A program made the translations under genes and the position numbers. 57,335 bases of DNA from positions 7,977-65,311 of the forward strand of contig NZ_BBPM01000021.1 of the NCBI RefSeq assembly GCF_000787775.1, given 5' to 3'. Within the stretch, counting starts at the first letter, position 1. Every line of letters begins with the position of its first letter. Source of the stretch: Streptacidiphilus carbonis (lineage in GTDB: Bacteria > Actinomycetota > Actinomycetes > Streptomycetales > Streptomycetaceae). The notes under the pieces are model-generated. The model worked only from the letters and a program-made list of their open reading frames with translations, made no database searches and was not told the DNA's origin. Shown one piece after another: positions 26,379-52,563 of this stretch.

Positions 26379-26402
26379 CTACCCGCCACCGGGCGGCTAT
26401 TC
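26379..26402 (-). promoter_or_regulatory. SigB-like promoter box before the SDR gene
   Basis: On the minus strand GAAT, 14 bases, GGGTAG. It fits the published Streptomyces SigB form GNNT-N14-16-GGGTA. The predicted leader is about 35 bases. The -35 overlaps the end of the GH13 gene. Confidence 0.5.
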
Positions 26403-28049
26403 CGTTCTTCGGCTGAGGCGTATCCAGCGGAAGCCGTGTCCGGCCAGTTCCAGGCCGGTCAGGCCGGGCTCCGGCTCCTCGTAGCGGCGGTCGCCGAACA
26501 CCTCGCCGAAGTCGGGGCCGGTGCCCTCCTGCTCGCCCAGGTCGACGGTGACCGCGCGGTCGCCGAGGTTGTGCACGAAGAGCACGGCGCCGGTGGGGGA
26601 GTCGGCGCGGTGGACCAGCACCGGGGGCGGCACCTCGGCGTCCACGACCCGGCAGCTGCCCCGGCCCACTTCGGGGCACTCGCGCAGCATCCGGATCGCC
26701 CGCTCCAGGAAGGCGAGCAGCGAGTCCGGGTTGCGCCGCTGCTCGGTGACGTTGACCTCGCGGTAGTCGTACGGTCCGGACTTGATCAGCTGCGCGGCGC
26801 GGCCGCGGCGCGGGGCGGTGCTGAAGCCGCCGCCGGGATGGCCGGACCACTGCATCGGGGTGCGGATGGACTCCCGTCCGGGCAGCCGCAGGTCGTCGCC
26901 CATGCCGATCTCGTCGCCGTAGCGGATCACCGGGGTGCCGCGCAGCGAGAGCAGCAGCGAGTAGGCGAGGCGCAGCCGCTGCCGGTCGCCGCCCAGCATC
27001 GGGGCCGGCCGGCGGCGGATGCCGCGGCCGTACAGCCGCATGTCCTGGTCGGGGGCGAAGGCGGCGAAGACCGCCTCGCGCTGGGAGGGTTCGAGCCGGC
27101 TGAGGTCGGCCTCGTCGTGCAGCCGCAGGAAGGACGCCCACTGGGCCGGCTCCGGCAGCCGCGGGCTGTTCCTGAGCAGTTCGGTGACCGGCGCGGCGTC
27201 GCCGGTGGCCAGGGCCAGCAGCAGACGGCCGTTGAGGGGGAAGTCGAACAGCAGGTGCATCCGGTCGTCGGAGCCGCCCGCGTCGGCGAAGAAGTCGGTG
27301 AGGCGGTCCGGCTCGACATTGGCCTCGGCGAGCAGGACGGCGTCGCCGCGGATCCAGGACAGGTGCTCGCGCAGCTCGGTGAGGAAGCCCCAGTCCTCCT
27401 CGGGGTCCGGGACGTCGGGCCGGGTCAGCTCGATCACGAAGGGCGCGGCGTCCACCCGGAAGCCGGCCACCCCGAGCTGGGTCCAGAAGCCGATGATCCG
27501 TTTGATCTCCTCGCGGACGGCCGGGTTGGCGATGTCCAGGTCGGGCTCGAAGTCGTAGAAGCGGTGGTAGTACCAGGCCCCGGCCTCCTCCTGCCAGGTC
27601 CAGGTCTCGTCCTGCTCGCCCGGGAAGACGATGCCCTGCCTGCGGTCGGCGGGCTCCTTCCCGGACCAGACGTACCAGTCCCGGTAGGGCGATTCCGGGT
27701 CCGAGACCGCCGAGCGGAACCACGGGTGGCGGTCCGAGGTGTGGTTGACCACCAGGTCGATCACCACCCGGATGCCGCGGTCGTCGCAGGCCCGGAGCAG
27801 GTCGGCGAAGTCGCCGAGCGTGCCCAGCCGCGGGTGCACGTTGTAGAAGTCGGTGACGTCGTAGCCGCCGTCGCGCATCGGCGAGGGGTGGATCGGGTTG
27901 AGCCACAGGCAGGTCGCGCCCAGCCGGGCGATGTAGTCCAGCCTGCTGATCAGGCCCCGTAAGTCGCCGACCCCGTCGCCGTCGGAGTCCTGGAAGGAGT
28001 CGACGTCGACGCAGTACACGACGGCCTGCTTGTACCAGTGCCCGATCAT
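26397..28049 (-). CDS. GH13 alpha-amylase family enzyme, trehalose-synthase-like
   Basis: A 550-residue GH13 enzyme. It begins WYKQAVVYCVDVDSFQDSDGDGVGDLRGL, the trehalose synthase/maltogenic opening, and has VVNHTSDRHPWF, GFRVDAAPFV (nucleophile Asp), LLAEANVEP (acid Glu) and FLRLHDEADL (transition-state Asp). Trehalose synthase (GH13_16) interconverts maltose and trehalose; the sequence fits that branch better than sucrose phosphorylase or amylase, but it lacks the fused maltokinase seen in some actinobacteria. Trehalose as an osmoprotectant agrees with the stress setting. GGAGG precedes the ATG at 28049, which overlaps the stop of the upstream transporter gene (ATGA). Confidence 0.82.
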   Translation of the reverse strand: MIGHWYKQAVVYCVDVDSFQDSDGDGVGDLRGLISRLDYIARLGATCLWLNPIHPSPMRDGGYDVTDFYNVHPRLGTLGDFADLLRACDDRGIRVVIDLVVNHTSDRHPWFRSAVSDPESPYRDWYVWSGKEPADRRQGIVFPGEQDETWTWQEEAGAWYYHRFYDFEPDLDIANPAVREEIKRIIGFWTQLGVAGFRVDAAPFVIELTRPDVPDPEEDWGFLTELREHLSWIRGDAVLLAEANVEPDRLTDFFADAGGSDDRMHLLFDFPLNGRLLLALATGDAAPVTELLRNSPRLPEPAQWASFLRLHDEADLSRLEPSQREAVFAAFAPDQDMRLYGRGIRRRPAPMLGGDRQRLRLAYSLLLSLRGTPVIRYGDEIGMGDDLRLPGRESIRTPMQWSGHPGGGFSTAPRRGRAAQLIKSGPYDYREVNVTEQRRNPDSLLAFLERAIRMLRECPEVGRGSCRVVDAEVPPPVLVHRADSPTGAVLFVHNLGDRAVTVDLGEQEGTGPDFGEVFGDRRYEEPEPGLTGLELAGHGFRWIRLSRRTE

Positions 28050-29083
28050 TCCGCCTCCGATTCGGTTGCAGTGGCCTGGAGGCCGTTGCGGGGGCCGCCG
28101 TGCAGGCGGTTCAGCTCGCCCTCGGCGCGCCTGCGCTGCTCCGGGGACGCGTCGGTGATGTCCAGGAAGATCTGGTCCAGTTGCGGCCAGCGGTCCCGCA
28201 TCGCCTTTCTGATGCGCATGCAGATCTCCTCGACCTCCTCGCTGTCGCGGCCGGCGTGGATGTCCAGCCGGGCCGCCAGCAGGGTGGAGTCCGGGCCGAG
28301 CTGCATGGTGAGCAGGTCGGCCACGGTGTCGACGTCGGGCTCCCGGTCCAGGAAGGCGCGCAGCTCGCCCTGCAGCTCCGGGTCGACGGCCCGGCCGATC
28401 AGCTCGTGCTCGGCCTGGCGTCCCAGCCGGTAGGCCACGAACACCAGCAGCAGGCCGATGCACAGTGACGCGCCGGCCTCCCAGCGACCGTCGCCGGTCA
28501 GCCCGTGCAGCCCCAGACCGGCCGCGGCCAGCAGCACGCCGACCACCGCGGTCGCGTCCTCGGCGAGCACCGTACGGAGGGCCGGGTCGCCGGCGGCCCG
28601 CAGCACCGACGACGGGCCGCGTCCGCGGCGTACCGCCGGGGCCTGGAACAGCGCCCTGGCCAGTGAACCGCCCTCGGCCAGCAGGGCGACGCCCAGGACC
28701 ACGAAGGAGACCAGGTAGCCGGTGTGCGTCTCGCTCTCGGGGTGGCGCCAGGCCTGCAGCCCCTGGAAGAACGAGAAGCAGCCGCCGGTGACGAAGATGC
28801 CCACGGCGGCCAGCAGCGACCAGAAGAAGCGCTCCTTGCCGTAGCCGAAGGGGTGTTCGCGGTCCGGGGCGCGCCTGCTGCGCCGCAGCGAGGCGATCAG
28901 GAACACCTCGTTGAGGCTGTCCGCGACCGAGTGGGCCGCCTCGGAGAGCATGGCCGGGGACGAGGCGATCAGGCCGGCCGCTGTCTTCGCCACGGCGATC
29001 ACCAGGTTCGCCGCCAGCGCGACGCCGACGGTGACCAGGGTGCTGCGCTGCCGTGCGGGGGCTGCGGCGCGGTGATCGCTCAT
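28046..29083 (-). CDS. Cation diffusion facilitator (divalent metal efflux)
   Basis: A 345-residue CDF exporter with about six membrane helices. The metal site motif in helix II is SEAAHSVADSLNE (HxxxD); in helix V it is LAEDATAVVGV, the E/D form seen in the ZNT9-like branch rather than HxxxD. A C-terminal cytoplasmic domain (IHAGRDSEEVEEICMRIRKAMRDRWPQ) follows. HPFGYGKERFFWSLLAA is the family loop. The substrate (Zn, Fe or Mn) cannot be decided. A GGGTAG (-10-like) lies 10-15 bases upstream of the start, but no matching -35 is seen. Confidence 0.87.
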   Translation of the reverse strand: MSDHRAAAPARQRSTLVTVGVALAANLVIAVAKTAAGLIASSPAMLSEAAHSVADSLNEVFLIASLRRSRRAPDREHPFGYGKERFFWSLLAAVGIFVTGGCFSFFQGLQAWRHPESETHTGYLVSFVVLGVALLAEGGSLARALFQAPAVRRGRGPSSVLRAAGDPALRTVLAEDATAVVGVLLAAAGLGLHGLTGDGRWEAGASLCIGLLLVFVAYRLGRQAEHELIGRAVDPELQGELRAFLDREPDVDTVADLLTMQLGPDSTLLAARLDIHAGRDSEEVEEICMRIRKAMRDRWPQLDQIFLDITDASPEQRRRAEGELNRLHGGPRNGLQATATESEAE

Positions 29084-29126
29084 GTGCTGCGGCTACCCGC
29101 GCGGCGAAGCGGTATGTGGGGCGATT

Positions 29127-30445: not shown

Positions 30446-30718
30446 TCAGGACGCCGCAGCCAGCCGCCTGTCGAGGTCGGGGACGAAGTCCGGGTAGCCG
30501 GCGGCGATGTCGTCGAGGTCCAGCATCGGCGGCAGGTCCGCCGCCGACTGCCGTTCCAGCAGCCACTGGACCGTCAGGTCGACCACCCGGGGCTCGTCGG
30601 TGACGGCGGCCGAGATCCGGCGCAGCACGTCCGGGGTGACCTGGATCCGGGTCTCGGCGTCGTCCAGGCGGACCAGGTACTCGTGGTCGCCCTGCGGTTC
30701 GATCTCCGTGTCGGTCAT
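30446..30718 (-). CDS. Hypothetical 90-residue protein
   Basis: A soluble, acidic protein with no family I recognise: TEIEPQGDHEYLVRLDDAETRIQVTPDVLRRIS, then VVDLTVQWLLERQSAADLPPMLDLDDIAAGYPDF. The pattern of strands followed by helices suggests a small alpha-beta fold. Its ATG overlaps the stop of the PfpI gene by 4 bases, so the two are translationally coupled and may interact. Confidence 0.7.
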   Translation of the reverse strand: MTDTEIEPQGDHEYLVRLDDAETRIQVTPDVLRRISAAVTDEPRVVDLTVQWLLERQSAADLPPMLDLDDIAAGYPDFVPDLDRRLAAAS

Positions 30719-31284
30719 GCCGCTCGCCCCTCGGCCCGGGCGAACTCGGTGACCATGGCCTCGTCGAAGGAGGGGAGGTCGTCCGGTTTGCGGCTGGTGA
30801 TCAGGGTGTTCGGGCCGGCGGTGCAGACCTCGACCCGCTCGTCGACCCAGTGGGCGCCGGCGTTGATCAGGTCGGTGCGCAGGCTGGGCCAGGAGGTGAG
30901 GGTGCGGCCGCTGACCACGCCGCCCTCGATCAGGGTCCAGGGGCCGTGGCAGATCGCCGCGACGGGCTTGCCGGCCTCGAAGAAGTCCCGGGCGAAGGCG
31001 ACGGCCTCGGGGTCCTGCCGCAGGGCGTCGGGGCTGGCGACGCCGCCTGGCAGTACCAGGGCGTCGTAGTCGGCCGCGGACACCTTGCCGACGACGTCGT
31101 CGACCTCGAAGGTGTCGGCGCGGTCCAGGTGGTTGAACGCCCGCACCTGGCCGGACCGGGTGGAGACCAGGCGCGGGGTGCCGCCGGCTTCGAGCACGGC
31201 CTGCCACGGGTCCGTCAGCTCGACCTGCTCGGCACCTTCCGGGGCGACGAGGAAGGCGACGGTCCGTCCCTGCAGGGTGACCAT
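30715..31284 (-). CDS. PfpI/DJ-1 family protein (type 1 glutamine amidotransferase-like)
   Basis: A 189-residue DJ-1/PfpI protein. The nucleophile elbow is AAICHGPW, with Cys followed by His, and VLPGG supplies the oxyanion region. Members act as proteases, glyoxalase III or protein deglycases in stress. GAGAGGAACG precedes the ATG. It heads the run PfpI - 90-aa protein - hemerythrin - DUF6328. Confidence 0.88.
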   Translation of the reverse strand: MVTLQGRTVAFLVAPEGAEQVELTDPWQAVLEAGGTPRLVSTRSGQVRAFNHLDRADTFEVDDVVGKVSAADYDALVLPGGVASPDALRQDPEAVAFARDFFEAGKPVAAICHGPWTLIEGGVVSGRTLTSWPSLRTDLINAGAHWVDERVEVCTAGPNTLITSRKPDDLPSFDEAMVTEFARAEGRAA

Positions 31285-31327: not shown

Positions 31328-31412
31328 ACCGCGCGTACCCCTCCCGCCTTGCCGCTGTCGGCCCGGGCAAACCGGGCGAACCGGGACTGGGCGGCACTGG
31401 ACGGGACCGCTC

Positions 31413-32579
31413 TCAGGCGACCCGGTAGGCCACGGCGCGCTCCTCGACCAGGCTGAGGCCGTGCCCGGGACGGCCGTCGGCGCCGGGCGTCAGCACACCG
31501 CCGCGGGGGTCGAGGGTGCCGTCGAAGAACAGGTTCTCGATCCGGACGTGGTCGTGGAACCACTCCAGGTGCCGGAACGCGGGGGCGGCGGCCGCCGCGT
31601 GGGCGTGGACGTGTGGGGCGCAATGGCCGGACAGCTGCAGCCCGAGGCCCTCGGCGACCGCCGCGGCGCGCAGCCAGACGGTGATGCCGCCGCAGCGGGT
31701 GGCGTCGGCCTGCAGGCAGTCGACGGCCCCGGCGGCGGCCATCCGGGTGAGATAGGGCAGGTCGTAGCCGTACTCCCCGGCCGCGACGTCGGGCAGCACG
31801 GCCTCGCGGACCGCGCGCAGCCCGGGCAGGTCGTCGGAGGAGACCGGCTCCTCGAACCAGCGGACGTCCTGGTCGGCGAAGGCCGCGGCGACCCGGACCG
31901 CCTGCTTGCCGGTGTAGCCGCCGTTGGCGTCGACATAGAGCTCGCAGTCCGGGCCGACGGCCTCGCGGGCCCGGCGGATCCGGTCCAGGTCGCGGCGCTC
32001 GCAGCCGCCCCAGGACTCGCCGACCTTGATCTTCACCCGGGGTATGCCCTGCCCGTCCGCCCAGCCGCGGAGTTGACGGTCCATCATGGAGTCGTCGTAG
32101 CTGGTGAACCCGCCGCTTCCGTAGACCGCGACCTGTTCGCGGGCCGCGCCCAGCAGCCGCACCAGGGGCAGACCGAGCAGTCGGGCCTTGAGGTCCCACA
32201 AGGCGATGTCCACCGCCGAGACGGCGCCGGCCACCAGTCCGGGCGCGCCGGCGTTGCGGACCGAACGGTGCATGGCCTCGTTGGCGGCCGGGACGTCCAG
32301 CGCGGAGCGGCCCAGCAGCAGCGGGGCCAGTTCGCCGCCGACCACCTCGCGGGTGGCCGGCGCGCCGTAGGTCCAGCCCAGTCCGGCCGTGCCCCCACTC
32401 ACCGCCTGGACCAGGACCATGGTGGTGCTGGTCCAGGCGATGGTGCCGTCGGCCTCCGGGGCGTCGGTGGGGACGGTGTAGACGGCGACGTCGATCCGGT
32501 CGATCGCCGGATCCGGCTTCCCGGTGCGGACCTTGTCCGCGCCGGCGGTGTGCGCGCCGGTGCCGTTCAGGCCGGTCAC
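31413..32579 (-). CDS. Mandelate racemase/muconate lactonising enzyme family (enolase superfamily)
   Basis: A 388-residue enolase-superfamily enzyme. PRVKIKVGE has the KxK base, YVDANGGY, FEEPVSSDD and AAGEYGYD give the three Mg2+ ligands (D, E, E), and LSGHCAPHVHAHAA carries a possible His partner near the C-terminus, the mandelate racemase arrangement. It abstracts a proton alpha to a carboxylate; sugar-acid dehydratase is a likely role, but the substrate is unknown. The GTG start overlaps the stop of the TPP enzyme gene (GTGA), so the two are cotranscribed. AGAAGGA precedes the GTG. Confidence 0.87.
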   Translation of the reverse strand: MTGLNGTGAHTAGADKVRTGKPDPAIDRIDVAVYTVPTDAPEADGTIAWTSTTMVLVQAVSGGTAGLGWTYGAPATREVVGGELAPLLLGRSALDVPAANEAMHRSVRNAGAPGLVAGAVSAVDIALWDLKARLLGLPLVRLLGAAREQVAVYGSGGFTSYDDSMMDRQLRGWADGQGIPRVKIKVGESWGGCERRDLDRIRRAREAVGPDCELYVDANGGYTGKQAVRVAAAFADQDVRWFEEPVSSDDLPGLRAVREAVLPDVAAGEYGYDLPYLTRMAAAGAVDCLQADATRCGGITVWLRAAAVAEGLGLQLSGHCAPHVHAHAAAAAPAFRHLEWFHDHVRIENLFFDGTLDPRGGVLTPGADGRPGHGLSLVEERAVAYRVA

Positions 32580-34432
32580 TGCCCGTCGTCCTTCTGGTCG
32601 GCGTCCTTCCCCCTGCCGTTCCCGGGCAGGAACTCCTGCAGCTTCGCCTTGACGCCCTGCTTGACCATCCCGGCGCGGTCGCTGTCGCCGTGCAGGATGG
32701 AGGAGGCGGTGGCCAGTGCCTGGTCCCAGTCGGCGTGCGGCGGGATCGGCGGGACGGCCGGGTCGGTGCGGAACTCGACGACGCAGGGCCGGTCGGCGGC
32801 CAGGGCCCGCCGCCAGGCGGCCTCGACCTGGTCGGGCTTGTCCACGCTGATGCCCAGCAGCCCGAAGTTCTCGGCGATCCGGGCGTAGGGGACGTCGGGG
32901 ATCTGCTGCGAGGGCAGGAACTGCGGGGCGCCCTCCATGGCCCGCATCTCCCAGCTGACCTGGTTGAGGTCGCGGTTGTTGAGCACGGCGACGACCAGCC
33001 GGGGGTCGTCCCAGTCCTGGTAGTACTTGGCGGCGGTGATCAGCTCGGCCAGCCCGTTCATCTGCATGGCGCCGTCGCCGACGATGGCGATCGCCGGGCG
33101 GTCCGGGTGGGCGAACTTGGCGCCGATGGCGTACGGGACGCCGGGGCCCATGGTGGCCAGCGTGCCGGACAGCGAGCCGCGCATGTCGCCGCGCAGCCGC
33201 AGGTGCCGGGCGTACCAGTTGGCGGAGGAACCCGAGTCGGCGCTGAGCATCACGTTCTCGGGCAGCAGTTCGTCCAGGGCGTGGACCACGTGCTCCGGGT
33301 TGACCGGGTCGGCCTCCAGAGCAGCGCGCCGCTCCATCACCTCCCACCAGCGGGCTGCGTTCTTCTCCACCGTGCTGCGCCAGGCGCGGTCCTCCTTGTG
33401 CTCCAGCAGCGGCACCAGCCGGTCCAGCGTCGCCGCCGAGTCGCCGACCAGGTTCACCTCGAAGGGGTAGCGCAGGCCGACCATGAACGGGTCGATGTCG
33501 ATCTGCACCGCCCTGGCCTGCCCGAACTCCGGCAGGAACTGGGTGTACGGGAAGCTGGAGCCGATCACCAGCAGGGTGTCGCAGTCCCGCATCAGCTCGT
33601 AGGAGGGGCGGGTGCCCAGCAGCCCGATGGAGCCGGTGACGAACGGCAGGGTGTCCGGCAGCACGTCCTTGCCGAGCAGCGCCTTGGCCACGCCCGCGCC
33701 CAGCAGTTCGGCGACCTGCTCGACCTGCGGCCGGGCCCGCCTGGCGCCCTGGCCCAGCAGGATCGCGACCTTCTCACCGGCGTTCAGCACCTCGGCGGCC
33801 CGCTGCAGGTCCTGCTCGTCGGGGACCGGGGTGTAGTGCGGGTGGCCCAGGCTGGAGGGGACCATCTTGAAGGCGTGGGCGGGGGCCTCGTAGTCCAGCT
33901 CCTGCACGTCCGCCGGGATGATCACCGCGGTGACGGTGCGCTTGGCGTAGGCGGTACGCATCGCCCGGTCCAGCACATTGGGCAGCTGCTCCGGGACGGT
34001 CACCATCTCGCAGTACTCGGAGGCGACGTCCTTGTACAGGCTCAGCAGGTCGACCTCCTGCTGGTAGGAGCCGCCCATCGCGCTGCGGTTGGTCTGACCC
34101 ACGATCGCCACCACCGGCACATGGTCGAGCTTGGCGTCGTAGAGGCCGTTGAGCAGGTGGATCGCGCCGGGCCCGGAGGTCGCGGCGCAGACGCCGACCC
34201 TGCCGGAGAACTTGGCGTACCCCACGGCCTCGAAGGCGGCCATCTCCTCGTGCCGGGCCTGGATGAAGCGCGGCCGGTCCTCGGCCCGGCCCCAGGCGGC
34301 CAGCAGGCCGTTGATCCCGTCCCCCGCGTAGGCGAAGACCTGCTCCACGCCCCAGTCCCGCAGTCGGTCCAGTACCTGGTCGGACACTTTCTCTGCCACG
34401 GCAGACTCCACTTCGCTCGGACATGTCGACAT
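32576..34432 (-). CDS. poxB: Pyruvate-oxidase-type thiamine pyrophosphate enzyme
   Basis: A 618-residue TPP enzyme. ARHEEMAAFEAVGYAK contains the cofactor-activating Glu, the centre is the Rossmann-like domain typical of the family, and GDGAMQMNGLAELITAAKYY...VVAVLNN is the TPP motif. The closest types are pyruvate dehydrogenase (quinone)/pyruvate oxidase, with acetolactate synthase-like enzymes as the alternative. PoxB in other bacteria is a stress and stationary-phase enzyme. The C-terminus has a short Lys/Asp/Gln tail. The ATG at 34432 sits in a 12-bp palindrome (34422-34433); the ribosome site is weak. A SigB-like box lies 17 bases upstream. Confidence 0.82.
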   Translation of the reverse strand: MSTCPSEVESAVAEKVSDQVLDRLRDWGVEQVFAYAGDGINGLLAAWGRAEDRPRFIQARHEEMAAFEAVGYAKFSGRVGVCAATSGPGAIHLLNGLYDAKLDHVPVVAIVGQTNRSAMGGSYQQEVDLLSLYKDVASEYCEMVTVPEQLPNVLDRAMRTAYAKRTVTAVIIPADVQELDYEAPAHAFKMVPSSLGHPHYTPVPDEQDLQRAAEVLNAGEKVAILLGQGARRARPQVEQVAELLGAGVAKALLGKDVLPDTLPFVTGSIGLLGTRPSYELMRDCDTLLVIGSSFPYTQFLPEFGQARAVQIDIDPFMVGLRYPFEVNLVGDSAATLDRLVPLLEHKEDRAWRSTVEKNAARWWEVMERRAALEADPVNPEHVVHALDELLPENVMLSADSGSSANWYARHLRLRGDMRGSLSGTLATMGPGVPYAIGAKFAHPDRPAIAIVGDGAMQMNGLAELITAAKYYQDWDDPRLVVAVLNNRDLNQVSWEMRAMEGAPQFLPSQQIPDVPYARIAENFGLLGISVDKPDQVEAAWRRALAADRPCVVEFRTDPAVPPIPPHADWDQALATASSILHGDSDRAGMVKQGVKAKLQEFLPGNGRGKDADQKDDGQ

Positions 34433-34448: not shown

Positions 34449-34473
34449 CTAGCCGCAGTCGGGAAGACGAAAC
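34449..34473 (-). promoter_or_regulatory. SigB-like promoter box before the TPP enzyme gene
   Basis: GTTT, 15 bases, GGCTAG on the minus strand. The -10 has C instead of G at the third position. It leaves a leader of about 10 bases. Confidence 0.5.
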
Positions 34474-34515
34474 CCCGGTTCCGGGGAGGAACTGTCAGTG
34501 GCTCAGGACGGCGGC

Positions 34516-35475
34516 TCAGGCCGCGGTGAGCCGGGGCAGCACCCGGTCCCGGTAGAAGTCGAAGAAGCCGTGGTAGTCCTGGCCGATCTGGCCGACGAAG
34601 ACCTCGTCGAAACCGGCGTCCACGTACTCCCGCACGGCGGAGACATGCTGCTCGGCGTCGTCGCCGCACACCACCGCGTCGGCCACCTGCTCCTCGGTCA
34701 CCAGCTGCGAGGCCTGTTCGAAGTGCTCAGGCGTCGGCAGCACCTGGGCCAGCTCGCCGGGCAGCAGTTCGGTCGGCCACAGCCGGTGCACGGTCTTCAC
34801 CGCCGTGTCGCGGTCCGGGTTCCAGCACACCTTCAGCCCGCCGAGCACCGGCTTGCCCGTGCCGCCGCCCTCGCGGAACGCGCCGACCAGGTCGGTGTCG
34901 GGCTGCATGGTGACGAAGCCGTCGCCGATCCGCCCGGCCAGTTCGGCGCTGCTCGGGCCGAAGCCGGAGACATGGACGGGCACCGGCCGGCTGGGCGCGG
35001 TGTAGAGCCGGGCGTCCTCGACGGTGTAGTGCCGGCCGTGGTGGCTGATGCGCTCGCCGCTGAACAGGGCGCGCATCACCTCGACGGCCTCCTCCAGCAT
35101 CTCGGCGCGGACGTCGTACTCGGGCCAGCGGTCGCCGAGGATGTGCTCGTTGAGCGCCTCACCGGTTCCGACACCGAGCGCGAACCTTCCCCGGGTGAGC
35201 ACGCTCGACGTGGCCGCCGCCTGGGCGGTCACCGCGGGGTGCAGCCGCACGGTGGGGCAGGTCACCAGGGTGGTCACCGGCAGGTCCGTGGCCTGCGAGA
35301 GGGCCCCGATCATGGACCAGACGAAGGGGCTGCTGCCCTGCTCGTCGTTCCAGGGATGGAAGTGGTCGGAGACCGCCAGGCCGGTGAACCCGGCCTGCTC
35401 GGCCAGCCGGGCCTGTTCCAGCAGCTGGTAGGGGGTGAACTCCTCGCAGGAGAGAAAGAATCCGAAGGAAGTCAT
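34516..35475 (-). CDS. LLM-class F420-dependent oxidoreductase (TIGR03557-like)
   Basis: A 319-residue luciferase-fold enzyme: FFLSCEEFTPYQLLEQARLAEQAGFTGLAVSDHFHPW, FVWSMIGALSQAT, VGTGEALNEHILGDRWPE and VPVHVSGFGPSSAELAGRIGDGFV are typical of the F420 glucose-6-phosphate dehydrogenase-like group, which uses deazaflavin F420 and a conserved His. The substrate is not known; the group is often stress-linked in actinobacteria. GAGAGG lies 7 bases before the ATG. A SigB-like box is upstream. Confidence 0.87.
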   Translation of the reverse strand: MTSFGFFLSCEEFTPYQLLEQARLAEQAGFTGLAVSDHFHPWNDEQGSSPFVWSMIGALSQATDLPVTTLVTCPTVRLHPAVTAQAAATSSVLTRGRFALGVGTGEALNEHILGDRWPEYDVRAEMLEEAVEVMRALFSGERISHHGRHYTVEDARLYTAPSRPVPVHVSGFGPSSAELAGRIGDGFVTMQPDTDLVGAFREGGGTGKPVLGGLKVCWNPDRDTAVKTVHRLWPTELLPGELAQVLPTPEHFEQASQLVTEEQVADAVVCGDDAEQHVSAVREYVDAGFDEVFVGQIGQDYHGFFDFYRDRVLPRLTAA

Positions 35476-35515: not shown

Positions 35516-35541
35516 CTAGCCGCGATCCGGCCCGCGGAAAC
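35516..35541 (-). promoter_or_regulatory. SigB-like promoter box before the F420 oxidoreductase gene
   Basis: GTTT, 16 bases, GGCTAG on the minus strand, 41 bases upstream of the ATG. It repeats the GGCTAG variant seen before the TPP enzyme. Confidence 0.5.
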
Positions 35542-35542
35542 C

Positions 35543-35830
35543 TCACCGGCCGTGAGGGGCTTCGCCCGGAGTGCCGGGCGGGGCGGCCCAGGAGCCGGAG
35601 TCCGGGGCGGCACGGTCCGCGGTCGCTTCCGGGTCGGTCGCCGACGGCGATTCGCCGAGGTCGCGTGCGACGGGGAGCGGCGCGGGCTCGCGCTCACGCC
35701 GGCGGGAGCCCCACACGAACGCGCCGATCAGAATGACAACGACGACGATTCCGATGATCAGGGCGATGATCCCGCCGGAACCGCTGGTGGAGGCTGCAAG
35801 GACGGCGTCTGCACTCATGGCGGTGTTCAT
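35543..35830 (-). CDS. Small single-pass membrane protein (DUF6479-like)
   Basis: A 95-residue protein with a short outer N-terminus, one strong membrane helix (GGIIALIIGIVVVVILIGAFVWG), a stop-transfer RRRERE and a Pro/Ala/Asp-rich cytoplasmic tail. I associate this shape with DUF6479, of unknown role. There are two possible starts, 35830 and 35818, neither with a clear ribosome site. A SigB-like box sits just upstream. Confidence 0.65.
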   Translation of the reverse strand: MNTAMSADAVLAASTSGSGGIIALIIGIVVVVILIGAFVWGSRRREREPAPLPVARDLGESPSATDPEATADRAAPDSGSWAAPPGTPGEAPHGR

Positions 35831-35839: not shown

Positions 35840-35863
35840 CTACCCCGCGCAGCCGCGCGAACC
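35840..35863 (-). promoter_or_regulatory. SigB-like promoter box before the small membrane protein gene
   Basis: GGTT, 14 bases, GGGTAG on the minus strand, 10 bases upstream of the first ATG, so the leader would be very short. Confidence 0.5.
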
Positions 35864-38859: not shown

Positions 38860-38884
38860 CTTCCCGGTTTCACCGGAAGCATCC
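38860..38884 (-). promoter_or_regulatory. SigB-like promoter box before dps
   Basis: GGAT, 15 bases, GGGAAG on the minus strand. The -10 uses the GGGAAG variant also seen before the antiporter operon and aconitase gene. Confidence 0.45.
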
Positions 38885-38970: not shown

Positions 38971-38994
38971 GTTTGGTTCCGGGGCGCGGGGAAG
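38971..38994 (+). promoter_or_regulatory. SigB-like promoter box before the Mrp operon
   Basis: GTTT, 14 bases, GGGAAG. The bases GGGAAGACGCATCC recur at 43444-43457 before the aconitase gene. Confidence 0.5.
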
Positions 38995-39795: not shown

Positions 39796-39796
39796 G

Positions 39797-41174: not shown

Positions 41175-41527
41175 GCGGGCTGTTCGGACTGGTGCCCCAC
41201 CTGGTCGCCGGGTGGATCCTGCTGGTCGGCATGTACGGGCTGGTGACCAGCCGCAATCTGGTCCATGCGGTCGGCTGCCTGGCGGTGGCCCAGTCCGCCA
41301 CCTACGTCCTGCTGCTGTCGGTCGGCTTCCGCCGCGGCGGCACCGCGCCGGTGTTCTCCGACGCCTCGCCGCACTCCGTGGTCGTCGACCCGGTCGTCCA
41401 GGCGCTCACCCTCACCGACATCGTGGTGGGCGCCACGGTCACCGCGTTGCTGCTGGCCCTGGTGATGCAGCTCCACAAGCGCCACGCCACCGTCGACCCC
41501 GACCGGCTGAACAGCCTGCGCGGATAG
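41171..41527 (+). CDS. mrpC: Na+/H+ antiporter subunit C (MrpC/NuoK-like)
   Basis: A 118-residue NuoK-fold protein with three helices; LVGMYGLVTSRNLVHAVGCLAVAQSATYVLLLSVG and DPVVQALTLTDIVVGATVTALLLAL are family marks. It overlaps the end of the previous gene (ATGA). Confidence 0.87.
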   Translation: MSGLFGLVPHLVAGWILLVGMYGLVTSRNLVHAVGCLAVAQSATYVLLLSVGFRRGGTAPVFSDASPHSVVVDPVVQALTLTDIVVGATVTALLLALVMQLHKRHATVDPDRLNSLRG

Positions 41528-41542
41528 CGGAACGGATCCTTG

Positions 41543-43424: not shown

Positions 43425-43449
43425 GTTAGCGGGCGACCAGGGCGGGAAG
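43425..43449 (+). promoter_or_regulatory. SigB-like promoter box before the aconitase gene
   Basis: GTTA, 15 bases, GGGAAG, 45 bases before the ATG. The GGGAAGACGCATCC that starts here is shared with the antiporter promoter. Confidence 0.5.
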
Positions 43450-43493
43450 ACGCATCCGACGGCAGCGTGTGCGAGAGCGCGGAGGTGGACCTC

Positions 43494-45500
43494 ATGAGCG
43501 GCGGCCCGATGTCGGTGGCGCAGCGCCTGATCGCGGAGCACCTGGTCGACGGCCGGACGGTGCCGGGGGAGGAGATCGCCCTGCGGGTGGACCAGACCCT
43601 CACCCAGGACGCCACCGGCACCCTGGTCATGCAGGAGCTGGAGGCCCTGGGCCTGGACCGGGTCAGGACCGAGGTCAGCGTCCAGTACGTGGACCACAAC
43701 ATCCTGCAGGCCGACGAGCGCAACGCCGAGGACCACGCCTTCCTGCGTTCCGCCGCCCGCCGGTTCGGACTCTGGTACTCCAAGCCGGGCAACGGGGTCT
43801 CGCACCCCACCCATATGCAGCACTTCGGCAGGCCGGGACGGACCCTGGTCGGCTCCGACTCGCACACCTGCGCCGCCGGGGCGCTGGGCATGCTGGCCAT
43901 CGGCACCGGCGGCCTGGACGTGGCGCTGGCCATGGCCGGGGAACCACTGCATCTGACGATGCCCCAGCTGTGGGGCGTCCGGCTGACCGGCACCCTGCCG
44001 CCCTGGGTGAGCGCCAAGGACGTAATCCTGGAACTGCTGCGCCGGCACGGGGTCAAGGGCGGCGTGAACCGCATCCTGGAGTACCACGGCCCCGGCCTCG
44101 GCGGGCTGAGCGCCATGGATCGGCATGTGATCGCCAATATGGGCGCCGAACTCGGCGCCACCGCCAGCGTGTTCCCCGCCGACGAGGCGGTGCGGGACTT
44201 CCTCCGGGCCCAGGGCCGGGAGCAGGACTTCCACCGCATCGTCGCGGACGACGGCGCCGGCTACGACGTGGCCGAGGAGATCGACCTCTCCGCGCTGGAG
44301 CCGCTGATCGCCCGACCGCACTCGCCGGGCGACGTCGTACCGGTGCGCGAGGCAGCGGGGACTCCGATCGGGCAGGCGGTCATCGGCTCCTCGGCCAACC
44401 CGGGCCTGCGCGACTTCGCCGTCGCCGCGGCGATGGCGGCTGGGCGGCAGAGCGCGCCCGGGGTGAGCCTGGACATCAACCCCAGCTCCCGGGAGATCCT
44501 GCAGGACCTCACCCGGCTGGGCGGCACCTTCCAGCTGATCGCGGCCGGAGCCCGGATCCACCAGGCCGGCTGCCTGGGCTGCATCGGCATGGGCCAGGCC
44601 CCGGCGAGCGGCCAGCACTCGCTGCGGACCTTCCCGCGCAACTTCCCCGGGCGCTCCGGCACCGCCGACGACTCGGTCTGGCTGTGCTCGCCGGAGACCG
44701 CGACCGCCTCGGCGCTGACCGGCGCGATCACCGACCCGCGGGACTGGGCCGCGGGGGAGCGGATGGAGCCGCCCCGGCTGGACCTCCCCGCGCGGGCCAG
44801 CGTCAACGACGCCATGCTCGAAGCGCCGTTGCCGCCGGAGCAGGCCGCCGAGGTGGAGCTGGTCCGCGGCGCCAACATCTCGGCCCTGCCCGACCTCGAC
44901 CCGCTGCCCGACACCGTGAGCGGACCCGTCCTGCTCACCATGGGTGACAATGTGTCCACCGACGAGATCTCCCCTGCCGGGGCGCGGGCGCTGCCGTACC
45001 GGTCCAACCTGCCGAAGCTGGCCGACTTCACCCTGACGCGCATCGACCCCGAGTACCCCGACCGGGCGCGGAAAGCGGGGACGCATCTCCTGGTCGCCGG
45101 AGAGAACTACGGCCAGGGCTCCTCGCGGGAGCACGCGGCCATCACCCCGCGGCTGCTGGGGCTGCGGGTGGTCCTGGCCAAGTCCTTCGCCAGGATCCAC
45201 TGGCAGAACCTGGCCAACTTCGGGGTGCTGGCCCTGGAGTTCGCCGATCCGGAGGACCACGGGCGGATCAGCCGGGGTGACGAGCTGTGTCTGGAACACC
45301 TGCACGAGCAGCTCGGCGCGGACCGCGACAGCCGGGAACTCGTCGTCCACAACACCACGACCGGGGACGACTACCCGGTCAGGCACCGCCTCTCACCGCG
45401 GCAGCGCGCCAACGTCCTGGCCGGCGGGGTCATCCCGGCCCTGGCGGGACAGCCCTCGCGGGGGCAGGGGACCTCGGCTCAGGGGACCTCGCGCAGGTAG
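43494..45500 (+). CDS. acn: Aconitate hydratase
   Basis: A 668-residue aconitase, the size of the bacterial/mitochondrial type lacking the long linker of AcnA (about 900). VGSDSHTCAAG and GCLGCIG hold the three iron-sulfur cysteines, the GDNVSTDEI segment opens the swivel domain, and YGQGSSREHAA has the substrate Arg/Ser loop. It isomerises citrate to isocitrate through a [4Fe-4S] centre, which is oxygen-labile and often stress-regulated. A second, housekeeping aconitase may exist elsewhere. GGAGG lies 9 bases before the ATG. The 3' end overlaps the next minus-strand gene by 22 bases. Confidence 0.88.
   Translation: MSGGPMSVAQRLIAEHLVDGRTVPGEEIALRVDQTLTQDATGTLVMQELEALGLDRVRTEVSVQYVDHNILQADERNAEDHAFLRSAARRFGLWYSKPGNGVSHPTHMQHFGRPGRTLVGSDSHTCAAGALGMLAIGTGGLDVALAMAGEPLHLTMPQLWGVRLTGTLPPWVSAKDVILELLRRHGVKGGVNRILEYHGPGLGGLSAMDRHVIANMGAELGATASVFPADEAVRDFLRAQGREQDFHRIVADDGAGYDVAEEIDLSALEPLIARPHSPGDVVPVREAAGTPIGQAVIGSSANPGLRDFAVAAAMAAGRQSAPGVSLDINPSSREILQDLTRLGGTFQLIAAGARIHQAGCLGCIGMGQAPASGQHSLRTFPRNFPGRSGTADDSVWLCSPETATASALTGAITDPRDWAAGERMEPPRLDLPARASVNDAMLEAPLPPEQAAEVELVRGANISALPDLDPLPDTVSGPVLLTMGDNVSTDEISPAGARALPYRSNLPKLADFTLTRIDPEYPDRARKAGTHLLVAGENYGQGSSREHAAITPRLLGLRVVLAKSFARIHWQNLANFGVLALEFADPEDHGRISRGDELCLEHLHEQLGADRDSRELVVHNTTTGDDYPVRHRLSPRQRANVLAGGVIPALAGQPSRGQGTSAQGTSRR
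45465..45494. repeat. Two 15-bp copies at the shared 3' end of aconitase and zinc-ribbon genes
   Basis: CAGGGGACCTCGGCT followed by CAGGGGACCTCGCGC. The stop of the minus-strand gene (TCA at 45479-45481) lies at the junction of the two copies. Confidence 0.7.
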
Positions 45501-45691
45501 ATGGCGCCGCAGGTGTGGCAGAACTTCTCCTCGGTGTGCCCCCAGGCCAGGTCGGACATCTTCTCCGCGGCCGGGTCCGTGTCGTACCCGCACAGAGCCG
45601 TGATGCCGTTGTCCTTGATCATGTGCCACTGGCCGATCCGCCGGCCGGCCGGTCCCGTCACGTACTCGGCACGCATCTCGTAGATCCGCAT
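45479..45691 (-). CDS. Small zinc-ribbon-like protein
   Basis: A 70-residue protein. Cys34 (ALCGYD), Cys58 and Cys61 (CHTCG) with nearby His (GHTEEKF) suggest a metal-binding knuckle. The start MRIYEMRAEYVTG is well formed. No family assigned. A perfect GTTT-N14-GGGTAG box lies about 75 bases upstream, so it is probably stress-induced. Confidence 0.65.
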   Translation of the reverse strand: MRIYEMRAEYVTGPAGRRIGQWHMIKDNGITALCGYDTDPAAEKMSDLAWGHTEEKFCHTCGAIYLREVP

Positions 45692-45762: not shown

Positions 45763-45786
45763 CTACCCCTCGGTTCTGCCCGAAAC
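45763..45786 (-). promoter_or_regulatory. SigB-like promoter box before the zinc-ribbon gene
   Basis: GTTT, 14 bases, GGGTAG on the minus strand. One of the best fits in the window. Confidence 0.6.
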
Positions 45787-46203: not shown

Positions 46204-46337
46204 GCGGCTGATCGTAACCCGGTCGCACCGCCGTCGCCGGGGTCGACGGCACGGAGTCGTTTGCGTTTCGGCGGACCGGTCATACGGGGGTTGAACGGCA
46301 CCCGTGCCACCGGACCCGACCCTAGGGGGCGACCCGA

Positions 46338-46836: not shown

Positions 46837-46842
46837 TCGAGG

Positions 46843-46867
46843 GTTTGTACCCGCAGGTCGCGGGTAG
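46843..46867 (+). promoter_or_regulatory. SigB-like promoter box before the PRC-barrel gene
   Basis: GTTT, 15 bases, GGGTAG, 36 bases before the ATG and directly after the WhiB stop. A perfect match to the form GTTT-N15-GGGTA. Confidence 0.6.
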
Positions 46868-46902: not shown

Positions 46903-47601
46903 ATGACCGAAGCCCAGGCAACCGTGAAGTACGCCATCGGAACCGAGGTCCACTGCGCGAACGGCACCTGCGGGCGGTTGGACCGAGTGGTGGTCGACCC
47001 GGTGGCCCGGACCCTCACCCACCTGGTGGTGGACCCCGGCAGCGGCACCCGGCGACTCGTGCCGCTCGACCTGGTGGAGAGCCCGGTCCAGGGCCGGGGC
47101 CACGACGCCGGCGTCATCGTGCTGCGGTGCGACACCGCCGCCTTCGAGGCGCTGGAACCGGCCGAGGAGACCGAGTTCCTGTCCGGCTACGACGACGACC
47201 GGTTCGGCTACGGAACCGAGCAGCTGATCGCCTGGCCGTACTTCGGCCTGGGCGTCAGCGGCACCGGCGGCATCGCGGGTGCCCCCGGGATCCTGCCGAC
47301 CGGAGTCGGCGAGCCGAGAGAGCAGACCTACGAGCGGGTGCCCAGCGGCGAGGTGCAGATCCGCAGGGGCGAGCGGGTCGAGGCGAACGACGGCGAGATC
47401 GGCCGGGTCCAGGGTCTGGTGATCGACCCGGCGGACCACGGGGTCACCCATGTGCTGCTGCAGGAGGGGCACTTCTGGGGTAAGAAGACCGTGGCCATCC
47501 CGATCCGTGCGGTCACCCGGGTGGGCGGCGGCTCGGTACGGGTGCAGCTGTCCAAGGCGCAGGTGGGAGACCTCCCACCGGTCGACCTCGACCATCCGTG
47601 A
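46903..47601 (+). CDS. PRC-barrel domain protein
   Basis: A 232-residue protein with two PRC-barrel-like units: first VHCANGTCGRLDRVVVDPVARTLTHLVVDPGSGTRRLVPLDLV (about 15-60), second RRGERVEANDGEIGRVQGLVIDPADHGVTHVLLQEGHFWGKKTVAIPIRAV (about 150-205), joined by an aromatic-rich, Gly-containing linker. PRC barrels bind nucleic acid or protein partners; small stress-induced PRC proteins are common in bacteria. It has its own SigB-like promoter and is followed 60 bases later by transketolase. Confidence 0.82.
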   Translation: MTEAQATVKYAIGTEVHCANGTCGRLDRVVVDPVARTLTHLVVDPGSGTRRLVPLDLVESPVQGRGHDAGVIVLRCDTAAFEALEPAEETEFLSGYDDDRFGYGTEQLIAWPYFGLGVSGTGGIAGAPGILPTGVGEPREQTYERVPSGEVQIRRGERVEANDGEIGRVQGLVIDPADHGVTHVLLQEGHFWGKKTVAIPIRAVTRVGGGSVRVQLSKAQVGDLPPVDLDHP

Positions 47602-49573: not shown

Positions 49574-49615
49574 AGGGTCATGCCTCAAGGGTCATGCCGC
49601 AGAGGTCATGCCTCA
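49574..49615. repeat. Three 14-bp tandem copies spanning the PP2C stop codon
   Basis: AGGGTCATGCCTCA, AGGGTCATGCCGCA and GAGGTCATGCCTCA. The stop of the minus-strand phosphatase gene (49606-49608) is inside the third copy, and two further copies of the gene end follow downstream. Confidence 0.8.
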
Positions 49616-51285
49616 GGGGTGCGCAGCGCCAGCAGGGCGACGTCGTCGGAGTTGTCGTGCGGTCGCGCCCGCTCCAGGAGCAGGTCGCAGAAGGCGTCCA
49701 GGGGTCGGTGGGCCAGGGCGGCGGCGTGGCGGCGCAGCAGGGCCATCCCCGGGTCGGTTCCGTGCGCCGGGGACTCGATCAGCCCGTCGGTGTAGAGCAG
49801 CAGGGTGGCGCCGGGGGGCAGCGGCTCGGTGGTGTCGCCGCGGGTGAAGGCCGTGCCGGTGCCGAGCAGCAGGACCTTGCCGGAGTCCAGGTAGCGGGCC
49901 CGGCCGTCGTGGGTGACCAGCAGCGGCGGCGGGTGCCCCGCGTTGGTCCAGCGCAGCCGCCAGGTGCCGTCGTCGCCGCGTTGGACCCTGGCCAGGATGA
50001 GCGTGGCCATGGTGGCGTCGGAGATGTGGGTCATCGCCCGGTCCAGCCGGTCCACGATGGCCCCGGGCGGCTCCTGGTGCGACCAGGCCAGCGCGCGGAG
50101 CATGTTGCGGACCTGGGCCATGCCGGCCGCCGCGTCCAGGTCGTGCCCGGCCACGTCGCCGATGACCAGGGCGGTGCTGCGGTCCGGCAGCGTGAAAGCG
50201 TCGTACCAGTCGCCGCCCACCTGCGAGGCGTGCGGGGCGGCGAGGTAGCGGACGGCCATCTGCAGGCCGGGGATCCTGGGCAGTTGCGGCAGCAGGTGCC
50301 GCTGCATGGTCTCGGCGACCCGGCGCTGCTGCTGGTAGAGCCGTGAGTTCGACAGGGCCAGCCCGGCCCGGCGGGTGATGTCCTCAAGCAGCGACAGGTC
50401 GCGGACGTCGAACCGGGCGTCGGCGGCGGTGCGGCCCAGCGTCAGCGCGCCCAGGACCTCGCGGGGGCCGCGGATGGGGGCTATCGCGGCGGAGCGCATC
50501 CCGGTGGCGGCGAACAGCTCGCGCTGGACCACGGCGATGCCCGAGTCCGGCGCACCCTCGTAGACCTCGGGACCGGTCACCGAGGCCGCGGTGCCGCGCA
50601 GGGCGCGCGACAGCGGCATCTGCGACCGCGGGGACACCGGAGGCATCGGCCCCTCCAGGTCGTCCCGGTGCACCAGCCGGCCCTCCTGGTGCTGCACGAC
50701 GGCGGTGCGCCAGATCTCGCCCTGTTCGTCGGCGAGGTCGACCACCACCCAGTCGGCCAGCCGCGGCACCACCAGTTCGACGAGCCGGGCGACGCACTCC
50801 TGTTCGTTCAGCGTCGAGGTGAGGGTGGAGGTGGTCTCCGCGAGCAGGGCCAGCCGCTCCAACTCGGCAAGTGACGGCGACGGACGTCCGACCTGCTCCG
50901 CCGCGGCCTCGTGGAAGATCACCGTCATCCCTGCGGTACCGGGCTCCCAGACGCACGGGGCCGCGGTCCAGGCGACCGGCAGCAGCGTGCCGTCGCCGCG
51001 TTCGAACCAGACGGTGCCGCCCTGGACCGGACGGTCGGAGAGCAGCGCGTGCATGATCGGGCACCGGGCGCGGGGCAGGGCGCCGCCGTCCTCGGCGCGG
51101 TGCAGCAGTTCGTGCTGGTCCTGGCCGAGGACGTCGATCTCGTCGCGCCGCACCAGCTCCAGCGCGCGGGCGTTCGCGGCGAGGATGTGGCCGCCGTCGT
51201 CCACCGCGAGCACGCCGAGGTCGGCGTGGTCGGGCCATTCGCCCAGCCGCTCCAGGGCCGGGCCGGACGGAGAGCCGATGGTCAT
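49606..51285 (-). CDS. PAS-GAF-PP2C (SpoIIE-type) phosphatase
   Basis: A 559-residue regulator. PAS domain about 15-130 (HADLGVLAVDDGGHILAANARALELVRR), GAF about 140-325 (MRSAAIAPIRGPREVLGALTLGR), phosphatase about 340-555 with QVGGDWYDAF, ALVIGDVAGHDLDAA, TNAGHPPPLL, LLLYTDGLIE and DDVALLAL giving the metal-binding acids. It would dephosphorylate an STAS protein such as the one encoded 0.3 kb away, an arrangement like the RsbU/RsbP-RsbV partner switch. No anti-sigma kinase gene is adjacent. The start at 51285 lies at MTIGSPSG. Confidence 0.87.
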   Translation of the reverse strand: MTIGSPSGPALERLGEWPDHADLGVLAVDDGGHILAANARALELVRRDEIDVLGQDQHELLHRAEDGGALPRARCPIMHALLSDRPVQGGTVWFERGDGTLLPVAWTAAPCVWEPGTAGMTVIFHEAAAEQVGRPSPSLAELERLALLAETTSTLTSTLNEQECVARLVELVVPRLADWVVVDLADEQGEIWRTAVVQHQEGRLVHRDDLEGPMPPVSPRSQMPLSRALRGTAASVTGPEVYEGAPDSGIAVVQRELFAATGMRSAAIAPIRGPREVLGALTLGRTAADARFDVRDLSLLEDITRRAGLALSNSRLYQQQRRVAETMQRHLLPQLPRIPGLQMAVRYLAAPHASQVGGDWYDAFTLPDRSTALVIGDVAGHDLDAAAGMAQVRNMLRALAWSHQEPPGAIVDRLDRAMTHISDATMATLILARVQRGDDGTWRLRWTNAGHPPPLLVTHDGRARYLDSGKVLLLGTGTAFTRGDTTEPLPPGATLLLYTDGLIESPAHGTDPGMALLRRHAAALAHRPLDAFCDLLLERARPHDNSDDVALLALRTPEA

Positions 51286-51399
51286 CCGAGCCCTCTCGTC
51301 CGACGGGTGTCGACCTGCTACGTCTGCAGGATACGCATCAGCCGGGCGGGTGGCGTCCGAAACGGGTCACGGTCTGCGGCCGAGGACCCGCCCGCGCGG

Positions 51400-51552: not shown

Positions 51553-51607
51553 CCACAGACTCCATTTCACCCGGGCAGAGGGTCGACCCATCGGGCCGAA
51601 GTCCCGG

Positions 51608-51632
51608 CTACCCGCGATCGCCCCGACTATGC
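51608..51632 (-). promoter_or_regulatory. SigB-like promoter box over the STAS stop codon
   Basis: GCAT, 15 bases, GGGTAG on the minus strand. TAG of the -10 is also the stop of the STAS gene, so this match could be coincidental. Confidence 0.35.
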
Positions 51633-52081
51633 CGAAACCCGCCCAGGAGGGTTCCGGATCCCGGACCGGGCCCTCTGCCGTCGGGTCGGCCGTCGGGCCG
51701 GCCGTCAGCACGGCGCCCGTCGGGACGGCGCCCGTCGGGACGGCTGCCGGCCAGCGCGGCGGGCACGGTGGCGTGGACGGCGCCGGGGTCGAGGCCCATC
51801 GCCCCCAGCAGTCGGCGCTGCGCCGGGGTGGGCGCTACCACCAGGACCTCGATGCCCAGGTCGGCGCCCAGTCGACGGGCCCGGGAGATCAGGGCCAGCC
51901 CCGGGGTGTCGATGAACTGCACCGGTGACAGGTCGAGCACCACCCGGCCGGGTCGCGGGTCGCGGTTCAGCACCTGCTCCCGTAAGGGCGCGGTGAGCTG
52001 GCCGATATGGACGCTGTCGAACTCGGGCGGCAGCCCGACGAGCAGACCGCCCTCGATCGGGTCGATACGCAGCGCGACCAT
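51608..52081 (-). CDS. STAS-domain anti-anti-sigma factor with repetitive tail
   Basis: A 157-residue protein. The first ~110 residues are a STAS domain (VVLDLSPVQFIDTPGLALISRARRLG). In classic RsbV-like proteins the phosphorylated residue is Ser after Asp; here Asp58 is followed by Thr59, so phosphorylation would be on Thr, or control is different. The C-terminus is a repetitive RPDGRRPDGRRADGRPDGRPDGRG tract made of GACGG-type DNA (about 51650-51760). GAGGAGA precedes the ATG. With the nearby PP2C phosphatase it forms a partner-switch pair. Confidence 0.82.
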   Translation of the reverse strand: MVALRIDPIEGGLLVGLPPEFDSVHIGQLTAPLREQVLNRDPRPGRVVLDLSPVQFIDTPGLALISRARRLGADLGIEVLVVAPTPAQRRLLGAMGLDPGAVHATVPAALAGSRPDGRRPDGRRADGRPDGRPDGRGPGPGSGTLLGGFRHSRGDRG

Positions 52082-52304
52082 GGTCGATCTCCTCGGACGA
52101 CGGCGACCCGGACGGCACCGACGCCCCTGCCGCCTGCGCCTTGTCCCAAGCATCGACCAACGAACGCCGTTCCGGTCCGGCGAACCGGTGACGATCCCTC
52201 GAACGGGTGAAGCGCGGTGCGGCTCGGACGACTTTTGCGCGCCCCCTCCCGGGGGCAGGCGAACAATTGGCGACACCCCGAGGAAGAAGAGGAGAGGATT
52301 CGCC

Positions 52305-52484
52305 ATGCAGTCCACGACACATACGCCCACGACCCAGACCAGCGCCGCCCCGCAGGTGAGGACCGCGCCGCGGACACAGCAGCGCCCGGCCCCCACGCGC
52401 CTGTCCGAGCCCGAGTTCGGCGCGGAGACGGGCGGCGACCGGGTGCCTCCGATCGCCGACAACATCATCCTGGGCGAGGACTGA
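52305..52484 (+). CDS. 59-residue peptide of unknown function (RiPP-precursor-like)
   Basis: MQSTTHTPTTQTSAAPQVRTAPRTQQRPAPTRLSEPEFGAETGGDRVPPIADNIILGED. The first half is Thr/Pro/Gln/Arg-rich and disordered; the second is acidic, ending in a hydrophobic-polar motif (RVPPIADNIILGED). GGAGAGG lies 8 bases before the ATG, one of the best ribosome sites in the window. Shape and size recall precursor peptides of ribosomal natural products, but no modifying enzyme is adjacent. It is divergent from the STAS gene across 223 bases. Confidence 0.65.
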   Translation: MQSTTHTPTTQTSAAPQVRTAPRTQQRPAPTRLSEPEFGAETGGDRVPPIADNIILGED

Positions 52485-52539
52485 CGCAGCGACGTACCGG
52501 CGGGCCGTGGACGTGACCCGGTCCGGCCGGGATCGGGCG

Positions 52540-52563
52540 GGTTCGACCGGGGATTCCGGGTAG
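52540..52563 (+). promoter_or_regulatory. SigB-like promoter box before the GDSL hydrolase gene
   Basis: GGTT, 14 bases, GGGTAG, 49 bases before the GTG start. Confidence 0.5.

Follow-up and report, generated by a model that had tools for sequence, protein, structure and literature searches.

The window analysed here is a 57,335-nucleotide stretch of DNA (genome G000, contig C119, positions 7977-65311) from a genome of 8.46 Mb in 139 contigs, whose host belongs to the Streptomycetaceae and probably to Streptacidiphilus. Among named relatives, its MnhD protein is closest to those of Actinacidiphila oryziradicis (79% identity) and Streptacidiphilus jiangxiensis (74%). The placement is supported by G007, a genome listed under the same genus, which shares 3.6 kb of identical sequence with Streptacidiphilus neutrinimicus (L220 against L076). 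Between 26 and 53 kb, two-part boxes resembling the promoters of SigB-family sigma factors are clustered upstream of genes, and boxes of the same form are conserved upstream of homologues in other genomes. Pfam and NCBIfam families in this interval comprise an Mrp-type antiporter operon, SDR, GH13 (trehalose-synthase-like), cation efflux (CDF), DUF6328, hemerythrin, DJ-1/PfpI, a pyruvate-oxidase-like enzyme (POX), an F420 oxidoreductase (LLM), DUF6479, DUF72, isochorismatase, HAD, Dps, aconitase, WhiB, PRC-barrel, transketolase, a PAS-GAF-SpoIIE phosphatase, STAS and GDSL. Rfam and tRNA scans of the window gave no matches.

An earlier note on this DNA listed 11 boxes as a SigB-type promoter island before stress genes. 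All 11 strings exist where it placed them, but their quality is uneven, and the list was incomplete: a box at 31348-31373 on the minus strand, before the DJ-1/PfpI gene, had been omitted. Four of the 11 are well supported (34449, 35516, 38971 and 46843). These four and the DJ-1 box are given below with their genes; scores in bits refer to an independent matrix of 24 mapped Streptomyces coelicolor promoters, built without window sequence.

30715-31284, minus: DJ-1/PfpI family protein (Pfam PF01965, 2.6e-46; start chosen by eye)
31348-31373, minus: SigB-family box GGTTTGCCC..GGCAAG before the DJ-1/PfpI gene (below 9.5 bits)
32576-34432, minus: thiamine-pyrophosphate enzyme, pyruvate-oxidase-like (POX; NF006129, 1010.5 bits; start 34432 or 34399)
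34449-34474, minus: SigB-family box GGTTTCGTC..GGCTAG before the POX gene (below 9.5 bits)
34516-35475, minus: F420-dependent LLM oxidoreductase (TIGR03557, 479.7 bits)
35516-35542, minus: SigB-family box GGTTTCCGC..GGCTAG before the F420 oxidoreductase gene (homologues with box)
38971-38994, plus: SigB-family box GTTTGG..GGGAAG before the Mrp operon (14.07 bits)
39044-43405, plus: Mrp-type antiporter operon, with matches to MnhE-like (39044-39532; weak, 0.027), MnhG (39797-40123), MnhB (in 40008-41174), MnhC (41171-41527) and MnhD (41543-43405)
46842-46867, plus: SigB-family box GGTTTGTAC..GGGTAG before the PRC-barrel gene (13.3 bits)
46903-47601, plus: PRC-barrel protein (PF05239, 7.9e-09)

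The Mrp operon runs from MnhE-like through MnhG and a segment weakly matching MbhE to MnhB, C and D; a full-length MrpA was not found in 39044-43405.

Six boxes fit GTTT-N14-17-GG(G/C)(T/A)AG, with a GTTT-like -35, a GGNNA -10 and 12-15 nt between the hexamers. The -10 elements end 8-72 nt ahead of called start codons, in the orientation of the gene. The mycobacterial SigF consensus, GGTTT at -35 and GGGTA at -10, is similar; mycobacteria are another actinobacterial order. A further comparison is offered by the promoters of the nine SigB homologues of S. coelicolor (PMC8346170), which share the GTTT -35, the 12-15 nt between hexamers, and a -10 that begins GG and has A in fifth place. The window differs from them in that its boxes mostly end in AG and that several promoters lie in one neighbourhood. 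Among its seven non-coding GTTT boxes, six end in AG (GGGTAG, GGCTAG, GGGAAG, GGCAAG) and one in AT.

Density, position and conservation of the boxes

Density was compared with 80 segments of 20 kb from the same genome (1.6 Mb). The published consensus GNNT-N14-16-GGGTA, which the listed boxes were said to fit, matches six of the 11 and not the other five, along with two unlisted window sites. It occurs seven times at 26-53 kb, where 2.55 matches would be expected (Poisson P 0.016), a single background segment has six matches, and as an island marker it is poor. Two tighter forms were picked post hoc, the second of them from the window itself. GTTT-N14-17-GGN(A/T/C)A has eight matches at 26-53 kb, one of which (34589) falls within the LLM coding region, against 0.59 expected and at most two in any background segment. 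GTTT-N14-17-GG(G/C)(T/A)AG has six against 0.10 expected, at most one per background segment, six in the 1.6 Mb of background, none in the first 26 kb of the window, and 28 in the whole 8.46 Mb, the window's six included. Neither form matches the window outside 26-53 kb, and the earlier remark that the first 25 kb lacks boxes holds for the forms scanned. For GTTT-N14-17-GGNWA the genome gives 97 rows, or 90 distinct places; six lie here within 15.6 kb, any other 15.6 kb has at most three, and clusters like this are expected at 8.0e-5. Two other genome clusters, C87 (three matches in 9.6 kb) and C77, were rejected: neither has a box within 160 nt of a same-strand called start.

Position points the same way. 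A box stands upstream on the correct strand in 6 of 27 island genes (one of the six is false, being inside a coding region) against 1 of 664 background genes, and in 5 of 26 against 6 of 1265 with a larger background.

The best support comes from boxes upstream of homologues in other genomes. GTTT-N14-17-GGN(A/T/C)A was sought within 150 nt upstream, with dinucleotide shuffles, reversed sequence and the opposite strand as controls. Homologue rows were dropped where identity was below 38%, the alignment began after residue 40, less than 150 nt lay upstream, or the last 60 bases were repeated; this removed 0 to 4 rows per gene in the nine genes recounted. The box precedes 9 of 16 POX homologues (shuffle mean 0.08), 12 of 24 LLM homologues (0.18) and 13 of 26 PRC-barrel homologues (0.22). 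All 16 POX homologues exceed 60% identity, and four of the nine boxed ones come from one group of similar sequence (L113, L114, L116, L129). Counts for other genes are 6/17 for SDR, 2/13 for DUF6328 and 2/10 for DJ-1. Shuffle means run from 0.05 to 0.22 over these six genes and MnhE, the reversed-sequence control over homologues gives one match in total (LLM), and the operon-internal controls MnhB and MnhC are boxed in 0/58 and 0/60. In the mrp locus of A. oryziradicis, GTTT + GGGAAGACG before MnhE and GGTTTC + GGCTAG before POX are both retained with changed spacers. An earlier footprint with a narrower -10 gave POX 5/16, LLM 5/18, SDR 6/17, CDF 2/9, PRC-barrel 3/26 and MnhE 2/21; control regions taken 350 nt inside the genes had no match apart from CDF (2/9).

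The surroundings of MnhD were compared in 53 other loci with full flanks. Leaving out Mnh genes, 39 of the 53 hold at least one window gene at 50% identity or more, and 21 hold at least two, with order and strand varying over 18 arrangements. None of the 80 own-genome segments holds any window gene, a background biased low since the genome's copies sit in the window; rough arithmetic (20 kb of 8.5 Mb, about six single-copy genes) puts the chance rate near 1 to 2% per locus. Most recurrent are SDR (16 loci), POX (12), DUF6328 (11), CDF (9), LLM (8), DJ-1 (7) and HAD (5), while Dps, aconitase, PRC-barrel, transketolase, STAS and PP2C occur in 0/53 at 50% identity. The clustering is not universal, because in the one-contig genome G013 the LLM, PRC-barrel, Dps and 70-aa protein homologues lie far apart.

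A count free of orthology agrees with this picture. Automatically called genes in 64 mrp loci are boxed in 46 of 1186 cases, as against 6 of 1265 genes called in the own background, with reversed-sequence controls of 6 and 3, respectively; the two gene sets come from different genomes, and the reversed control is therefore the fairer comparison. Boxed genes in mrp loci, 15 of the 46 having been run against Pfam, include hemerythrin, PRC-barrel, DUF3140, DUF2795, DUF5709, SsgA, a Rieske protein, a Polyketide_cyc protein, a SigB-family sigma factor and MnhE (weak, 1.5e-05).

Two of the six boxed background genes (L303 17836-18450 and L314 12758-13357), one judged by eye to be a membrane protein and the other a Polyketide_cyc protein, resemble boxed genes of relatives.

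Taken together, we consider it likely that the neighbourhood is a cluster of stress genes with SigB-family promoters, which a SigB-family factor, of the SigH, SigF or SigN kind sooner than SigB, would switch on together. The trigger could be osmotic or oxidative stress, or development. For POX, LLM, PRC-barrel and the Mrp operon the proposed promoters have good support, and for DJ-1 one is probable; DUF6479, the 70-aa gene, WhiB and GDSL are possible cases, and SDR, aconitase and Dps doubtful ones.

Shared regulation, and not one operon, seems to hold the genes together, because in relatives many of them are also neighbours but in a different order. Members that have their own promoters despite changing order and strand would suggest that co-regulation, not operon membership, keeps them together. 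The evidence tips slightly toward a wider reading, that Streptomycetaceae keep a stress regulon spatially together: the Mrp antiporter would be ringed by a varying set of separately transcribed genes (POX, F420 oxidoreductase, SDR, DUF6328, DJ-1 and cation efflux, with PRC-barrel or hemerythrin in some loci). Many of these would bring a SigB-family promoter of their own, their order and strand would vary between species, and some species would have a boxed SigB-family sigma gene within the neighbourhood. Genes that stay together without forming a single operon are known as an uber-operon; here the common feature is the type of sigma-factor promoter, and the order is scrambled. To our knowledge, stress sigma regulons have been described as dispersed over the chromosome, and no account of such a neighbourhood was found in the literature searched, whose coverage excludes most subscription journals. 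The neighbourhood offers a short list of targets for sorting the roles of the several SigB homologues, and it suggests a part in the stress response for DUF6479, DUF6328 and the 70-aa protein, whose functions are unknown.

The sigma factor and the STAS and PP2C genes

The source genome encodes six SigB/F/G-family factors above the family cut-off, and none of these six genes is located in the window. In S. coelicolor, promoters of SigF, SigH and SigN retain GTTT and those of SigB, SigL and SigM have a looser GNNT (PMC8346170). Because the best boxes here have GTTT, the predicted reader leans toward the SigF/SigH/SigN group and away from SigB itself; this is a lean, not a test. The factor on contig C103 has a long N-terminal part and is preceded by a protein whose match to HATPase is weak (0.0007, under the Pfam cut-off), a pair that resembles the ushX-sigH operon of the same source. 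By arrangement, the C103 and C97 factors would be orthologues of SigH and of SigF/SigN, respectively.

SigB proper, the master factor of osmotic stress, could be the reader as a special case of the shared SigB-family control favoured above, with the STAS and PP2C products of the window controlling it by partner switching, as the earlier note had proposed. This is doubtful. The published consensus does fit six of the listed boxes, and PP2C (49606-51285) and STAS (51608-52081) are real genes. In S. coelicolor, three mapped promoters of SigB homologues have GGGTAG at their end, and two of the three depend on SigB or SigB/SigL; SigB homologues widely cross-recognise promoters, and some promoters read by SigB have GTTT (PMC8346170). 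However, the loose -35 of the SigB/SigL/SigM group does not match the GTTT of the best boxes, and neither STAS nor PP2C recurs in the mrp loci (0/53 each at 50% identity). A partner-switching module brings together a sigma factor, an anti-sigma kinase, a STAS antagonist and PP2C; the window has STAS and PP2C, and no SigB-family factor above the family cut-off. Nothing links the two genes to the boxes, and their control of them was rejected as unsupported. What stands of the proposed island is its SigB-family character, by density, position and conservation, but not SigB itself as its reader.

Sigma genes also occur near mrp in relatives, where six of the 64 loci hold nine SigB-family genes. 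Two of the nine (L078 and L086, 95% alike) lie behind a GTTT box, and one is confirmed above the family cut-off. The own background segments hold none, to which little weight attaches as about one would be expected from six per genome.

Three further arrangements were seen. In Streptomyces sp. ICBB 8177 (L078 15009-17237), a boxed SigB-family sigma gene and a boxed SsgA-family gene lie within 6 kb of MnhD. In the source genome, tandem SigB-family sigma genes on C97 (L063 6998-8975) have a GGTTTTGTC..GGGGGTAG box immediately ahead of the start called for the second gene. At L058 12143-12166, a GTTTCACC..GGGGAA box lies about 170 nt ahead of a sigma gene below the SigBFG cut-off (C137:72738).

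Chance clustering and other roles for the boxes

A number of results weigh against a neighbourhood under common SigB-family control. When the pattern is left free (64 four-base words, with all -10 patterns having two two-fold positions), the window ranks fifth of 41 segments. With a threshold of 10 bits the independent matrix finds 16 sites at 26-53 kb where 10.4 are expected (P 0.06); at 11 bits it finds 8, with 4.9 expected (P 0.13). Seven of the 11 listed boxes reach 9.5 bits with it and 26379, 34449, 38860 and 51608 do not, so that the POX box, like that of DJ-1 (31348), falls below. Genome-wide, neither GTTT-N14-17-GG(G/C)(T/A)AG (28 against 34) nor GTTT-N14-17-GGNWA (97 against 104) is commoner than in the reversed control, and the strict -10 form GTTT-N14-17-GGGTAY has no match in the window and eight in the genome. 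Conservation is uneven as well. Among LLM homologues, 5 of 14 are boxed at 60% identity or more, against 7 of 10 below 60%, which belong to a paralogue of about 45%; among PRC-barrel homologues 1 of 5 is boxed within the genus and 12 of 21 elsewhere, all below 60% identity. MnhE homologues are boxed in 1 of 21 cases, and those of Dps (0/5), the 70-aa gene (0/12), CDF (0/10) and HAD (0/7) in none. Opposite-strand matches upstream of homologues number four for PRC-barrel, two each for POX and MnhE, and one each for LLM, SDR and HAD; in the orthology-free count they reach 21 of 1186 in mrp loci and 6 in the own background. Some opposite-strand matches may be divergent promoters.

These results bear on the explanation that a pattern picked after reading the window makes a few real promoters look like an island. 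The free-pattern rank, the lack of a clear excess with the independent matrix and genome-wide counts equal to controls all speak for it, and it follows from them that density alone does not carry the claim. Chance clustering is nevertheless improbable: with GTTT fixed, as in the literature form, the window ranks first of 41, conservation in relatives is independent of density in the window, and the orthology-free gene calls are also in excess in mrp loci. In the 64 mrp loci, a de novo count of the hexamers that follow GTTT has top words that resemble repeated or homologous sequence, and places GGTTAG seventh and GGCTAG fifteenth at a gap of 15. That the boxes bind a repressor or activator and are not promoters is very improbable given the two-part motif with its 14-17 gap, the -10 ends lying 8-72 nt ahead of called start codons in gene orientation, and the match to mapped S. 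coelicolor promoters (PMC8346170).

Remaining boxes and genes

The other boxes of the interval and their genes are the following.

26379-26402, minus: weak box GAATAG..GGGTAG before the SDR gene (start 26337)
35543-35830, minus: small DUF6479 protein, 95 aa (PF20087, 6.8e-13)
35840-35863, minus: box GGTTCG..GGGTAG before the DUF6479 gene; -10 ends 10 nt ahead of the ATG
38251-38817, minus: Dps-like ferritin (PF00210, 5.6e-24)
38860-38884, minus: weak box GGATGC..GGGAAG before the Dps gene (GTTT box in 0/5 homologues)
43425-43449, plus: weak box GTTAGC..GGGAAG before the aconitase gene (11.26 bits)
43467-45500, plus: aconitate hydratase (NF005558, 901.6 bits; start probably 43509)
45479-45691, minus: conserved 70-aa protein without Pfam match (matches in 14/14 genus genomes, own included)
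45763-45786, minus: box GTTTCG..GGGTAG before the 70-aa gene (15.0 bits; 0/12 homologues boxed)
46259-46283, plus: box GTTTGC..GGTCAT upstream of the WhiB-like gene, whose start is not fixed (12.89 bits)
51608-51632, minus: probably a chance string, about 320 nt from the PP2C start
52540-52563, plus: box GGTTCG..GGGTAG before the GDSL hydrolase gene (motif and position)
52613-54124, plus: GDSL hydrolase (PF13472, 1e-16)

The putative boxes at 35840, 45763 and 52540 have the support of motif and position only, and those at 26379, 38860 and 43425 are weak. The string at 51608 was rejected and is probably chance, because the STAS stop codon falls within its GGGTAG.

S. coelicolor dpsA has a mapped SigB-like promoter (PMC3184153), and the window likewise has a Dps gene with a SigB-like box upstream. 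Its -35, however, is GGAT, and none of the five homologues has a GTTT box, so that the Dps box of the earlier note finds no backing in relatives; this too counts against the proposed common control. In the same-genus genome G013 (L237), a DJ-1 homologue (77%) with a GTTT box adjoins a Dps homologue.

The DUF6479 start, 10 nt past the -10 of the 35840 box, suggests a leaderless transcript. Boxes that end about 10 nt ahead of the ATG, as for leaderless transcripts, also occur in F420 oxidoreductase paralogues (L219, L220, L078 and L086). Outside the interval, 21577-25224 on the minus strand encodes a protein of 1215 aa that combines a kinase domain and WD40-type repeats.

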